Shown here piece after piece: positions 34 through 58,366 of a stretch of 64,000 bases of DNA; the stretch's first letter is position 1, and every line of letters begins with the position of its first letter. The notes under the pieces were generated by a model. The model did no database searches and was not told the origin of the DNA. It was given only the letters and a program-made list of their open reading frames with translations. Origin of the DNA: Lysinibacillus parviboronicapiens (GTDB taxonomy: Bacteria; Bacillota; Bacilli; Bacillales_A; Planococcaceae); the NCBI RefSeq assembly GCF_003049575.1, contig NZ_PYWI01000011.1, forward strand, positions 1 to 64,000, in the 5' to 3' direction. The translations under genes and the position numbers were made by a program.

Positions 34-410
34 GTATATATGTATAATATTTTTAGAAAATAAATCTGAGTAAAATGGAAATTTATAAGCCAAAAGAAAT
101 GATTATGAAAAGGGTTTTTAATATAAGCATAGTATTAACTAATCATTTCAGTCCCATATACTAGTTGAAAAGGTATTTTAACCTATGATATTGTAAGGGA
201 TATAGATAATTATATTTATGCTATTCTTGTATAATTTATACGTATTGTACCAGTTGAAAATTAGTTTCATTATTTATAATATATCTGACATGCATATAAA
301 AAATGTAAAACATGCCTCTATCAGCAAAACGTATGAAAACTACGTTTATTAGAACAACGCAGTCCAATGGAAAAGGGAGGGAGGTCACATAATGCTGGAA
401 CATTGCGTAT
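34..410. other. AT-rich 5' flank of the HD-GYP gene, no gene seen
   Basis: This stretch is very AT-rich and I see no credible coding region. A reading frame on the minus strand (236-556) has no ribosome binding site and overlaps the start of the HD-GYP gene. A strong purine-rich Shine-Dalgarno (GGGAGGGAGG, about 375-384) lies just before an ATG at 392. Confidence 0.6.
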
Positions 411-2141
411 GTGGCAAAAAATGTGCTAAGAAAAGTGACATTAAGTATTGATGAAGTGAAAGCGGATGATATTTTAGCAGAAGATATTTTTTCCGAGTAC
501 CGCCTATTAGCTAAAAGAGATTTAGTGTTAACAGAGCGGATTATTGCATTACTCAAGCTTAGAAAAGTAGAAGAATTATCAGTTTATTTGCCTTCAGATT
601 CAGTACGAATTGTCCATGATTTAGGTGCACAGCGTACAAGGGAGTACGAGGATGTATTTGCACCACTCATAGAGAAAAAGGAAGAGATTGATGAATATAA
701 AGAAGCGGTAAACAATCTTTTTATGACAACTTTAGAAAATGTTGTTCATGAATTGCGTTATGGCCAAATTTTGAAAAGTATACAGGATACTTCCTATGTG
801 AGAAATATTTTTGAACAGATTCTGGCAGAAAAGCATCGCTATGACTTACTGATGCGATTAAGGGAATGGGATGAGTATTCATTTGTTCATTCATTTGACG
901 TATTCGTACTAGGTACAATTTTTGCGCGTCATTTAGGCTTAACAGATATCGAAACACTTGCAAGAGGCTATTTATTCCACGATATTGGAAAGTTATTTAT
1001 TCCCCAAGAAATCTTGAATTTAAAGCGAAAACTATCTGAAGATGAATTTGAAATTGTTAAATTGCATACTACAAAAGGCTTTGAGTTACTTGTGGAGAAT
1101 GGCGAAGAAGATATTGCCTATTTGGCACGTGACCATCATGAACGCTTTGCTGGGAAAGGTTATCCCAATCATCTTTGTGCAGATGAAATGAGTGAGGGTG
1201 TTCAGTTATTACAAATAATAGATGTGTATTCCGCCATGACATCGAAACGTGTGTATCATACAGGGTATGGTGCGACAGATGCGTTAGCTGTTTTATATCG
1301 TGATCGTCATTTGTATAACGAGAAGTTTATGCATAAATTTGTAGAGTGTCTAGGGATTTATCCTGTGAATTCAGTGGTGCTACTTTCCGATTATCGACGG
1401 GCGCAAGTAGAGCTTGTCTATGATTTATTCCCGACGCTACCGAAAGTAAAATTGCTAGATGAGCAAACGTCTATGAATTTACCTTTGAATTATAGTATAA
1501 AAATTGCTGAAATGATTGACTATCGTGTAAATAGTTTTGAGGAAATATTTAACTTATTTGTTGAGCAACTTATACGTTGTGATGAAGATAAATTAAGAGG
1601 TCATTTTAATAAATTAATCGATCATTTGCATCCAAAAGAAATAGTTTTGAAAATCTTCTTACCTGCTTTCCGAATTTTGCGACTATTGACAAGGGAAATT
1701 CAAACCGATATGACGAAGTATAGAAATTCTATAAATATTTTAAAGATATTGTTAGAAGAGCAGCTAAATGTTTTGTACATGGATTATCAGCATGATAAAA
1801 CGACAGTTTTAGTGGTGGAGACAACACTTCGCGAAAATTTTTTCATTAAATTAGTTCAGAGTATTTTGTATATTGATAAAATCGTGCCATTCTTTATTAA
1901 TCCAGGTGATGATCAGCGGATTACACAGCTTATGGAGCACTGTGAGGTAAATGTAGCCTATTTTATTGAAGATGAGTTAACAATGGAAAAAAGAGTGCGT
2001 CCGATGCGTGAAGGCACATTTCTTTATTACTCCTTAAAAGATATTGAAGAGTTGCTTGTTAGTTTAGTAGGGACGAGTATGAAAAAATTTTCCTTTGAAG
2101 AAAAAATGCAAGAACGTTTGTTTACAAAATTAAAGGCATAA
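411..2141 (+). CDS. HD-GYP domain protein, probable c-di-GMP phosphodiesterase
   Basis: The 576-residue protein carries an HD-GYP domain at about residues 155-330. It shows HDIGK at 190-194 and DHHER...GKGYP at 241-252, the metal-binding and GYP signatures of enzymes that hydrolyse cyclic di-GMP. The N-terminal 60 residues resemble the leader region of this family; the C-terminal 250 residues are unrecognised. No membrane segment is seen, so it is probably cytosolic. The start is doubtful. GTG at 411 lies about 27 bases from the strong Shine-Dalgarno, while the well-spaced ATG at 392 is in another frame that rejoins this one if the A6 run at 416-421 loses one base. GTG at 423 is another option. 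It is convergent with glyS. Confidence 0.85.
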   Translation: MAKNVLRKVTLSIDEVKADDILAEDIFSEYRLLAKRDLVLTERIIALLKLRKVEELSVYLPSDSVRIVHDLGAQRTREYEDVFAPLIEKKEEIDEYKEAVNNLFMTTLENVVHELRYGQILKSIQDTSYVRNIFEQILAEKHRYDLLMRLREWDEYSFVHSFDVFVLGTIFARHLGLTDIETLARGYLFHDIGKLFIPQEILNLKRKLSEDEFEIVKLHTTKGFELLVENGEEDIAYLARDHHERFAGKGYPNHLCADEMSEGVQLLQIIDVYSAMTSKRVYHTGYGATDALAVLYRDRHLYNEKFMHKFVECLGIYPVNSVVLLSDYRRAQVELVYDLFPTLPKVKLLDEQTSMNLPLNYSIKIAEMIDYRVNSFEEIFNLFVEQLIRCDEDKLRGHFNKLIDHLHPKEIVLKIFLPAFRILRLLTREIQTDMTKYRNSINILKILLEEQLNVLYMDYQHDKTTVLVVETTLRENFFIKLVQSILYIDKIVPFFINPGDDQRITQLMEHCEVNVAYFIEDELTMEKRVRPMREGTFLYYSLKDIEELLVSLVGTSMKKFSFEEKMQERLFTKLKA

Positions 2142-4009: not shown

Positions 4010-4099
4010 TATTGTAGCATGTAGTTCTTTTCTTCGCAATAACCATTAAAATAGTATATAATAATTGAGCATGAGTATAACACTATTAGAGTTGAGGCG

Positions 4100-56594: not shown

Positions 56595-57929
56595 CTATTT
56601 TGTTATTTCTGTTACGATAGGTGCAGTTTTTCGTAAAGGACGAACCTCTACATAATGTAGCTGATGACCTTGTTGCTCATAGACACTAAATACATATGGA
56701 GCAAGTTCAATGTTTTTGGCTATTTTGTTACCATTATTCACTGTTAAAAACCAGCCGCCTAGTGTTTCTACTTCTTCCGCATCAAGTGCCACACCTAATA
56801 AATTTTCTACATCTTTAACACTCATTTTAGCATTTAGAATATAATGATTTTCGCTTATTTTTCGAATCTCAGCAATTTCATCATCATCAAACTCATCGCG
56901 AATTTCACCGACGATTTCCTCTAAAATATCCTCAACTGTAACTAGTCCAGACGTACCACCATATTCATCCATTAAAATAGCCATATGAATACGTTCTTTT
57001 TGCATACGTACGAGTAATTCTTGAATTGGAATCGTTTCAATAACATGAATAACAGGGTTAATAAAATCTTCAAGTACTAATGAGTCGTCTGTTAACTGTT
57101 CAATCAATCCACGGGTGAATAATTCCTTTGAGTTAAGTGAGCCTAAAATATTATCACGGTCGCCGTCATAAATGGGATAGCGTGTATATTTTTCGGAAGC
57201 GATATAGTGAATGATATTTGTAAACGTTTCATTCTTTTCTATACCAACGATTTCTGTTCGAGGCACCATAATTTCGCGTGCAATACGTTCGTCAAATTCA
57301 AAGATATTATTAACGAATTTCAACTCATTTTTATTGATTTCACCGCTTTTAAAACTTTCAGAGAGCAATAGACGTAATTCTTCCTCTGTATGGGATAGTT
57401 CATGCTCAGAAGCGGGCTTCATACCAAAGAAGCCAACGAGAACACGAGCTGAACCATTTAAGAACCAGATAAATGGATACATTAGTTTATAGAATGCCAT
57501 AATTGGTTTAGCAAAAAGTAGTGTAATCTTTTCTGCTTTTTGTATCGCAGCTGTTTTTGGTGCTAATTCACCGACAACAACATGTAGGAATGTTGCGATG
57601 GCGAAGGCTGAACCAATCGTGAAAATTGTCATGTACTTATCGGAAATACCGACCATATCGAAAAGGGGATGCAGCATAAATTCAAAGGTTTTTTCACCCA
57701 CCATCCCGATACCAAGGGCTGTCACCGTAATACCAAGTTGGCACGCCGATAAGTACTCATCTAAGTGATCGACGACATGTTTTGCAGAAATCGCTTTTTT
57801 ATTGCCTTCCGCAATCAATTGGTCAAGCCTTGAGGAACGTACTTTTACAATGGCGAATTCCGTTGCGACGAAAAAGCCTGTTAATGCTAATAAAATGGTA
57901 AAAATTGATAAGTTAAGTATGGTCTCCAA
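56595..57929 (-). CDS. CNNM/CorC family transporter-associated protein (DUF21-CBS-CorC_HlyC)
   Basis: The 444-residue protein has an N-terminal DUF21 membrane domain with about four helices (FFVATEFAIVKVRSSRLDQLI at the start). Two CBS domains follow at about 205-330 (IMVPRTEIVGIE, MAILMDEYGGTSGLVTVEDILEEIVGEI), then a CorC_HlyC domain from about 345. Family members such as B. subtilis MpfA (YhdP) export magnesium; some are mislabelled haemolysins. TTG 57929 is the only possible start: an in-frame stop lies five codons upstream. Its Shine-Dalgarno is 25 bases away, with a 20-base palindrome filling the space. Confidence 0.9.
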   Translation of the reverse strand: METILNLSIFTILLALTGFFVATEFAIVKVRSSRLDQLIAEGNKKAISAKHVVDHLDEYLSACQLGITVTALGIGMVGEKTFEFMLHPLFDMVGISDKYMTIFTIGSAFAIATFLHVVVGELAPKTAAIQKAEKITLLFAKPIMAFYKLMYPFIWFLNGSARVLVGFFGMKPASEHELSHTEEELRLLLSESFKSGEINKNELKFVNNIFEFDERIAREIMVPRTEIVGIEKNETFTNIIHYIASEKYTRYPIYDGDRDNILGSLNSKELFTRGLIEQLTDDSLVLEDFINPVIHVIETIPIQELLVRMQKERIHMAILMDEYGGTSGLVTVEDILEEIVGEIRDEFDDDEIAEIRKISENHYILNAKMSVKDVENLLGVALDAEEVETLGGWFLTVNNGNKIAKNIELAPYVFSVYEQQGHQLHYVEVRPLRKTAPIVTEITK

Positions 57930-57934
57930 ATAGT

Positions 57935-57954
57935 CGTTCTGTTAAAACAGAACG
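57935..57954 (-). promoter_or_regulatory. Stem-loop between Shine-Dalgarno and TTG start of the CNNM gene
   Basis: CGTTCTGTT-AA-AACAGAACG is a perfect 9-bp palindrome. On the minus-strand mRNA the Shine-Dalgarno AGGAGGTGA (57963-57955) directly touches one side. Five bases (57934-57930) and then the TTG start (57929) lie on the other. Folding would bring the Shine-Dalgarno to a normal 5-base spacing. Confidence 0.7.
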
Positions 57955-57961
57955 TCACCTC

Positions 57962-58366
57962 CTAATTATTAATGAGTAGTAGTAAGGATTGCATTAGTGC
58001 AATACTTTCAGGCGAAACGTTTTTTTTTATTGTTTGTATATTTTTTTGGTCTTGTTTATCCATCTGCGCAAGGAGAGACGTTACCTCATGCTCTAAATCT
58101 TGCATTTTCAAGCGAAGCATTTGGACATCTATTTCTTCATATGGCGTGATGTTTAGTTCGTGTTGTATTTCTTCAAGTGAAAGACCCTCCAGTTTGCGTC
58201 GCTCGATATAATGCAGCCGCTCAATCATTGCAGGTGCATAATAGCGATAATTTGATGCAGATCGTTCAGCTTCTAACAGGCCAATATTTGTATAGTAATC
58301 AATTGTTCTTTTGGTAATGCCCGTTTTTTCTGCAAACTCGCCAATTCTTAATTTCTCTGTCCCAAT
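57962..58366 (-). CDS. MerR family transcriptional regulator
   Basis: The protein of about 134 residues has the MerR winged helix LRIGEFAEKTGITKRTIDYYTNIGLL, then YRYYAPAMIERLHYIERRKLEGLSLEEIQ, and a long dimerisation coiled coil. The start is unusual. The frame reaches TTG 58381, but that codon overlaps GGAGG and has no site of its own. The in-frame ATT at 58366 lies 7 bases after GGAGG and gives GTEKLRIGEF, so an AUU start is likely. The TAG stop overlaps the Shine-Dalgarno of the CNNM gene, which suggests coupling. A perfect dyad overlaps its promoter. Confidence 0.85.
   Translation of the reverse strand: MGTEKLRIGEFAEKTGITKRTIDYYTNIGLLEAERSASNYRYYAPAMIERLHYIERRKLEGLSLEEIQHELNITPYEEIDVQMLRLKMQDLEHEVTSLLAQMDKQDQKNIQTIKKNVSPESIALMQSLLLLINN

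Follow-up and report, generated by a model that had tools for sequence, protein, structure and literature searches.

How can a ribosome initiate at a TTG codon that lies 28 nt beyond the GGAGG core of its Shine-Dalgarno (SD) sequence? The question is raised by a gene on the minus strand of the 64,000-nt stretch of Lysinibacillus parviboronicapiens DNA analysed here (contig NZ_PYWI01000011.1; hereafter the window), all coordinates of which were re-checked on the sequence. Read directly from the sequence of that strand, the extended SD AGGAGGTGA (57963-57955) is followed by the hairpin-forming stretch CGTTCTGTTTTAACAGAACG (57954-57935), the linker ACTAT between hairpin and start (57934-57930) and a TTG (57929-57927) that aligns with the TTG of relatives. 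An earlier note on this DNA had described a perfect 9-bp palindrome that connects a distant SD with the start codon, and palindrome, SD, ACTAT and TTG are indeed all found where it placed them; the DNA arms do comprise nine bases, but in the RNA fold the stem has 8 bp and encloses a 4-nt loop (CGUUCUGU-UUUA-ACAGAACG). The in-frame TAA invoked by the note to dismiss earlier starts is the fifth codon 5' of TTG 57929, and no other in-frame start precedes the conserved DUF21 motif. The hairpin spans 20 of the 28 nt, so that its folding would leave a net spacing of 8 nt, and the predicted duplex of the leader with the anti-SD reaches -15.6 kcal/mol.

The gene itself (57929-56595, minus strand) is an open reading frame of 444 aa for an MpfA/YhdP-like membrane protein in which the CNNM, CBS and CorC_HlyC domains all exceed their Pfam cut-offs, while no NCBIfam equivalog scores above its cut-off. 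Judged by these domains, it is a member of the CNNM/CorC family, of the ion-exporter type and with a predicted transport function, and its closest named match comes from Lysinibacillus sphaericus OT4b.31 (95% protein identity). The genes for the CNNM Mg2+ exporters MpfA/YhdP of B. subtilis belong to the same protein family, and four partially redundant CNNM paralogues are described for that species in the excerpted text of PMC8844918. The source genome of the window contains two CNNM genes (E<=0.001), and the paralogue (L002) is bridged as well, with a spacer of 48 nt. Directly upstream of the window gene lies a gene for a MerR-family regulator (58365-57962, minus strand; from Pfam and reading of the ORF), the stop codon TAG of which (57964-57962) overlaps the AGG of AGGAGGTGA.

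Folding of 66 nt around the window hairpin gives a z-score of -1.16, with 17 of 200 shuffles as stable, which is weak support by itself. When the 28-nt spacer alone is shuffled by mononucleotides, 3 of 5000 versions are as stable, and a stem of eight pairs (G-U allowed) appears in 106 of 5000. Comparative conservation is a stronger test than folding of the window alone. We therefore turned to the 112 loci nearest to the window gene (L001-L112), noting that the underlying searches overlap in genomes and that several loci represent the same genome. A leader was counted as bridged if GGAGG is followed by a stem of at least five contiguous pairs and then by a start codon in the reading frame of the protein. 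This layout is present in 108 of the 109 loci that could be placed (62 distinct leaders, the 108 including the paralogue L002 as well as L111, a second CNNM gene of its own locus), so that the central proposal of the earlier note, a distant SD bridged to TTG after the manner of T4 gene 38, is strongly supported by comparison. A stem broken without compensation, which the note had regarded as the observation that would tell against it, occurs in a single placed locus, L063, where the stem is mismatched. Three loci were not placed: L003 is not a CNNM N-terminus, and L109 and L112 were missed by the motif script, although hairpins are visible in both. The bridged records come from Lysinibacillus, Psychrobacillus, Cytobacillus, Metabacillus, Robertmurraya, Niallia, Mesobacillus, Priestia, Paenibacillus, Bacillus and others.

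In a further sample of 59 CNNM leaders, drawn from the same family and the same class, the script called 50 bridged; one call (L154) is spurious, L167 is real with a wrong start picked by the script (corrected for later measures), and L130 and L156 look bridged by eye and were missed by the script. An additional sample of the class yielded 14 bridged leaders out of 18, and a sample of the phylum 5 out of 40, made up of 4 of the 8 leaders from genomes of the same class and 1 of the 32 from other classes (L222). The latter belongs to a family outside the window's class (f58), in which L222 has the hairpin and a net spacing of 8 nt and L226 and L230 have no hairpin and a TTG at 9-10 nt.

The geometry was measured in 112 distinct spacers, of which the first set contributed 60 and the next two sets 52, with the 18-leader class sample excluded and L063, L154 and L170 (a 10-base placeholder) left out; these leaders were partly chosen for having a hairpin, yet 108 of 109 in the first set passed. 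The linear distance from SD to start is 34 +/- 8.2 nt (range 19-55) and the core hairpin takes up 11-44 nt, whereas the net distance outside the core stem is 10.4 +/- 1.5 nt and falls within 8-13 nt in 111 of the 112 leaders, the search for the core stem having permitted 5' links of 1-9 nt and 3' links of 1-11 nt only. The 5' linker measures 4-5 nt in 91 leaders and the 3' linker 5-6 nt in 86; in L015 ten extra nucleotides are all accommodated inside the hairpin, neither linker being altered. Note that the constancy of the net spacing is limited to the core stem, because weak outer pairs lengthen many stems in the full minimum-energy fold, by which the net distance becomes 7.3 +/- 3.6 nt (1-13). 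Ordinary GGAGG-to-start distances have their modes at 7-8 nt (two related genome samples), the bridged net spacing thus being slightly above the usual one. In 112/112 leaders the predicted duplex of distal SD and anti-SD reaches -8 kcal/mol or better (mean -14.7 kcal/mol, versus -3.3 for the start-proximal region). Earlier starts are excluded in 90 of the 112 by an in-frame stop codon that separates the SD from the start.

The pairing is constrained as well. Stability of the spacer is reached by at most 3 of 300 shuffles in 108 of the 112 leaders. An alignment of 56 rows (A1), in all of which GGAGGTG is invariant, has 99.7% of its stem cells paired, with double-sided changes in six of the seven pairs and a covariation score of 0.374, compared with 0.209 in shuffled alignments (0/500 as high) and at most 0.125 in slid versions. 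The numbers of paired cells and of double-sided cells likewise exceed those of every one of the 500 shuffles and of every slid version; the other two of the five measures are weak (pairs with double-sided changes, 21/500 as high; further pair types, 130/500). A second CNNM subfamily (A2; 13 rows: L002, L123, L126-L128, L131, L133, L136-L138, L140, L145 and L146) carries a different and longer hairpin, in which 95.4% of cells pair, 6 of 10 pairs have double-sided changes and the covariation score is 0.399 versus 0.206. Its apical loop is conserved and resembles UCAUUY; it sits on a 3-bp stem with a covarying middle pair (C-G in 10 and G-C in 3 of the 13 rows), and such loop conservation hints at a binding partner.

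Taken together, these leaders combine an over-long SD distance, conserved intervening pairing and a functional net spacing, three features of a split RBS. With constraint on position, pairing and net spacing but freedom of sequence and length, this is also the simplest account, and we consider it highly probable, on comparative grounds, that the hairpin is the structural spacer of an accommodated (split) RBS of the T4 gene 38/25 type that has spread through the CNNM family. The 30S subunit would pair with the very strong upstream GGAGGTG, and the folded hairpin would remove 11-44 nt (20 in the window) from the path, allowing UUG to reach the P site. As the hairpin would place UUG at a net 8 nt, it would be needed for initiation rather than opposed to it; we infer that it stays folded on the 30S subunit and that its melting would lower translation. 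The start codon is TTG in 108 of the 112 leaders, ATG in three and GTG in one (over all sets, ATG replaces TTG in L071, L148, L151 and L275), as compared with TTG in 15 of 134 GGAGG-led ORFs from two genome samples, where the script preferred ATG when a choice existed. The Fisher p of ~6e-47 for this excess is descriptive because the sequences are related. The most likely role of the arrangement would be a fixed, modest initiation rate, set by a strong SD, a weak UUG and a structured spacer, for an ion-exporter-type membrane protein.

Several observations nevertheless speak against a split RBS. The layout is not obligatory, being absent in 9 of the 59 leaders of the second set (by script), 4 of the 18 of the class sample and 4 of the 8 same-class leaders of the phylum sample, and TTG is also used by CNNM genes without a hairpin. 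The stem GUCUUAC/GUAAGAC is conserved beyond the needs of a mere spacer, and the predicted accessibility of the SD is only partial (mean 0.37; 0.25 in the window leader). Moreover, an in-frame start nearer to the SD, inside or before the hairpin, exists in 7 of the 109 placed loci (TTG at 12 nt in L026, L028, L031, L032, L039 and L105; ATG at 3 nt in L093), where a second start is possible.

The split RBS resembles genes 38 and 25 of phage T4, in which an SD too distant from the start is restored to a working distance by RNA structure in between, folding shortening the separation from 22 to 5 nt in gene 38 and from 27 to 11 nt in gene 25; the gene 25 arrangement occurs in close T-even phages and is absent from more distant relatives (excerpts of PMC3014915). 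Unlike these phage genes, the CNNM case is chromosomal, extends over a bacterial protein family in many families of one class and is predicted from sequence comparison; its stems are wholly different between subfamilies and its start codon is TTG. As in the split RBS of E. coli thrS, a folded RNA separates the contacts of the ribosome, but the standby-site modules of thrS lie upstream of the SD, whereas the structure of the CNNM leaders lies between SD and start (excerpts of PMC3936740). The cases of hairpin-accommodated RBS named in the excerpted review are two T4 phage genes (PMC3014915), to which CNNM would add a chromosomal gene family. The main text of PMC8844918 uses none of the words 'leader', 'start codon', 'stem-loop' and 'hairpin', and the excerpts of the MpfA literature (PMC8844918, PMC11332333) describe no leader structure. 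No CNNM leader of the bridged kind was encountered in the literature searched, which is weak evidence of absence, subscription journals being mostly outside that search. The persistence of the layout across many families of a bacterial class, despite wholly different hairpins in the subfamilies, offers natural comparative evidence that selection can act on a folded spacer as a component of a start site. Predictors of start sites and UTRs may go wrong on bridged genes if they require the SD to be close, and the CNNM leaders offer a ready set for testing how the 30S subunit makes room for a helix in the spacer.

A different reading would make the leader a regulated switch, in which the 5' arm has two alternative partners, the SD in the off state and the 3' arm in the on state, or in which the 3' arm hides a proximal SD. 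Some leaders do carry GGAG-GUGA-CUCC at the SD, pairing of SD and spacer is predicted at 0.61-0.91 in L106, L108, L129, L145 and L215, and an SD-like stretch (<=-5 kcal/mol) occurs in the 3' arm at canonical distance in 33 of the 112 leaders, the window leader reaching only -1.4 kcal/mol there. A proximal SD as the true site, which would count against a split RBS, was rejected for most leaders and may apply in these 33. Over the whole set, however, the predicted SD-spacer pairing averages only 0.14 (0.03 in the window), anti-SD pairing near the start is weak by its mean (-3.3 versus -14.7 kcal/mol), and the leaders searched belong to no Rfam family, so that a switch appears unlikely to us. At the Rfam gathering score, the window and seven further loci gave no match to the leader, and at E<=5 the eight leader loci gave one match of chance level (E 3.4; 17.1 bits versus a gathering score of 88).

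The neighbouring gene suggests another possibility, namely that the main function lies in translational coupling to merR, with ribosomes ending on merR remodelling the hairpin and loading on the SD. A MerR-like match lies upstream in 92 of 108 loci, and the overlap of the merR stop with the SD, to which the earlier note had drawn attention, recurs in 47 of the 92 (45 from Lysinibacillus and 2 from Psychrobacillus, the window included); the 3' end of merR is also predicted to pair weakly with the SD. The overlap thus stands, but the coupling does not generalise: in the remaining 45 of the 92 loci the merR stop is 10-728 nt from the SD and the hairpin is kept, as it also is in the 16 of 108 loci without a MerR-like match within up to 1.4 kb (e.g. 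Lysinibacillus odysseyi, L059). Coupling as the main function is therefore rather improbable; in the 47 overlapping loci it may add something, but does not conserve the hairpin. As to the note's further idea that the arrangement sets the ratio of regulator to transporter, we found nothing in support of such control, which is conceivable within Lysinibacillus.

The palindrome could also be a DNA operator of a dimeric regulator such as the adjacent MerR, with the RNA fold as a by-product. Its perfection, the conservation of the half-sites GUCUUAC/GUAAGAC across genera and the frequent MerR-like match upstream (92/108 loci) would fit an operator. The lengths of the loop in the 56 rows of A1 (1, 2, 3, 4, 5, 6, 8 and 10 nt) differ by single bases, though, and variation of the half-site spacing from 1 to 10 nt would rotate the half-sites relative to each other on DNA, which favours RNA over a DNA operator; an operator of fixed spacing was rejected, as the half-site distance is not constant. 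In addition, the stem sequence is wholly different between the subfamilies while the SD-to-start geometry is constant, the hairpin is kept in the 16 loci without a MerR-like match, and the merR promoter carries another palindrome, all of which makes an operator very improbable. An intrinsic terminator, mRNA-end protection or a mobile palindrome unconnected with initiation has nothing beyond the mere presence of a hairpin to recommend it, hairpins being common in intergenic DNA, and is scarcely credible given that no intrinsic terminator is called at the hairpin, that a single copy of its model R1 exists in the genome at E<=0.05 and that the linkers are narrow (4-5 nt in 91/112 and 5-6 nt in 86/112).

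The promoter region of merR contains the promoter-like sequence TTGAAT-18-TATAAT (58430-58401, minus strand), a consensus match only, such sites numbering 14 in the scanned stretch versus 9.5 in shuffles, and the inverted repeat ACCATCACG/CGTGATGGT (58416-58408 / 58390-58382, minus strand), a possible MerR operator. Palindromes similar to ACCATCACG...CGTGATGGT sit just 5' of the merR SD in many other loci.

The start of merR is itself odd. In the start region (58379-58348, minus strand), where an NTG-GGR motif follows the SD, the best-placed start, TTG 58365-58363, defines the 0 frame, and the MerR frame is the -1 frame, from GGG 58363-58361; the mechanically called ORF begins at TTG 58381, ahead of the SD. 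An NTG with an SD-like stretch is present in all 70 distinct merR leaders, the 0 frame closing after five codons in 65, and the motif [ATC]TGGG[GA] occurs at -20 in 67 of the 70 and at -17 in L106, L108 and L111. In 45 of the 70, the stretch from the upstream in-frame stop to the HTH contains no in-frame ATG, GTG or TTG; among the other 25, an in-frame start lies within 24 nt in 7, whereas in 18 the only one is at least 30 nt upstream, level with the SD or ahead of it. Third-position variability in the MerR frame begins right after GGG, the third base of which hardly varies. In a second set of 30 loci, found by starting the search from another centre (partly the same sequences), the motif occurs in 30/30; 8 lack an in-frame start, but 11 have one no more than 24 nt away, so that the case is weaker in this set. 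From the pattern of the reading frames, merR appears to need a -1 shift at the second codon, possibly by a new programmed frameshift or by unusual initiation; the merR frame would be consistent with glycyl-tRNA slipping in the P site from GGR onto the GGG that overlaps it.

The CNNM family handles magnesium, and ribosomes are themselves magnesium-dependent. One may speculate that the merR-CNNM operon senses Mg2+ or the state of the ribosome through initiation, combining the hairpin-bridged UUG with an obligatory -1 shift in merR. We regard this as a long shot; if it were true, both initiation steps could answer to free Mg2+, raising export when Mg2+ is in excess, and bridging hairpins would constitute a new class-wide regulatory RNA device.

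Returning to the preferred reading, the split RBS, we searched genomes with CM R1, built from the 56 rows of A1, the window sequence among them. In the source genome it matches 57927-57963 (E=1.2e-8), the sole match at E<=0.05. Over 101 genomes, all 38 matches with E<1e-5 adjoin a CNNM gene, many of the 38 being training sequences or near-copies; R1 misses variants such as G010 (leader L015), and five weak matches comprise one CNNM leader and four sites without a long ORF (G099, G097, G040 and G066). Over 299 genomes of the class, 15 of 17 matches adjoin a CNNM gene, the two others lying before a transaldolase-family gene (L259; Pfam TAL_FSA) and within an ABC-type gene (L260; from reading of the translation). 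The SD-hairpin-start grammar is usable beyond CNNM, and the R1 type is nearly private to CNNM in the genomes searched. In L259/L299 and L300 (G295 and G322, of one genus), the transaldolase-family gene is preceded by GGAGGTG, a hairpin, 6 nt and TTG or GTG; the hairpins differ between the two species, and the start in G322 is GTG. Of 30 leaders in this comparison 27 could be read, and the other 25 of these look ordinary by eye.

A simple scan for GGAGG, a hairpin, a start and an ORF of at least 80 aa gave no match in G011 and two in G048 (400 kb each), two in the window and three in G440 (160 kb), against 99, 142, 21 and 65 canonical sites in the same stretches, respectively, and we therefore rejected the idea of a genome-wide bridging device. 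In 240 kb of the GC-rich G295 (62% GC) the scan is unusable because chance matches dominate: 26 matches face 145 canonical sites, and 23 of the 26, which have at least 17 open codons upstream, were taken as chance. The second match in the window (376, plus strand) was read as false, an ATG 7 nt 3' of that SD opening a short ORF.

Three minor observations were made along the way. A PreQ1 riboswitch match (54.7 bits versus a gathering score of 39) lies at 4039-4083 (plus strand) of L048, from Cytobacillus gottheilii, 3' of the CNNM gene and far from its leader. The CNNM leader of L272 has AGGAGG 8 nt before ATT, with no clear in-frame ATG, GTG or TTG at canonical distance. Finally, the SD and ATG at 376-445 (plus strand) of the window open a 19-codon, Cys-containing ORF (MLEHCVCGKKCAKKSDIKY) that overlaps the GTG start region of a 572-codon ORF and is possibly a leader peptide.
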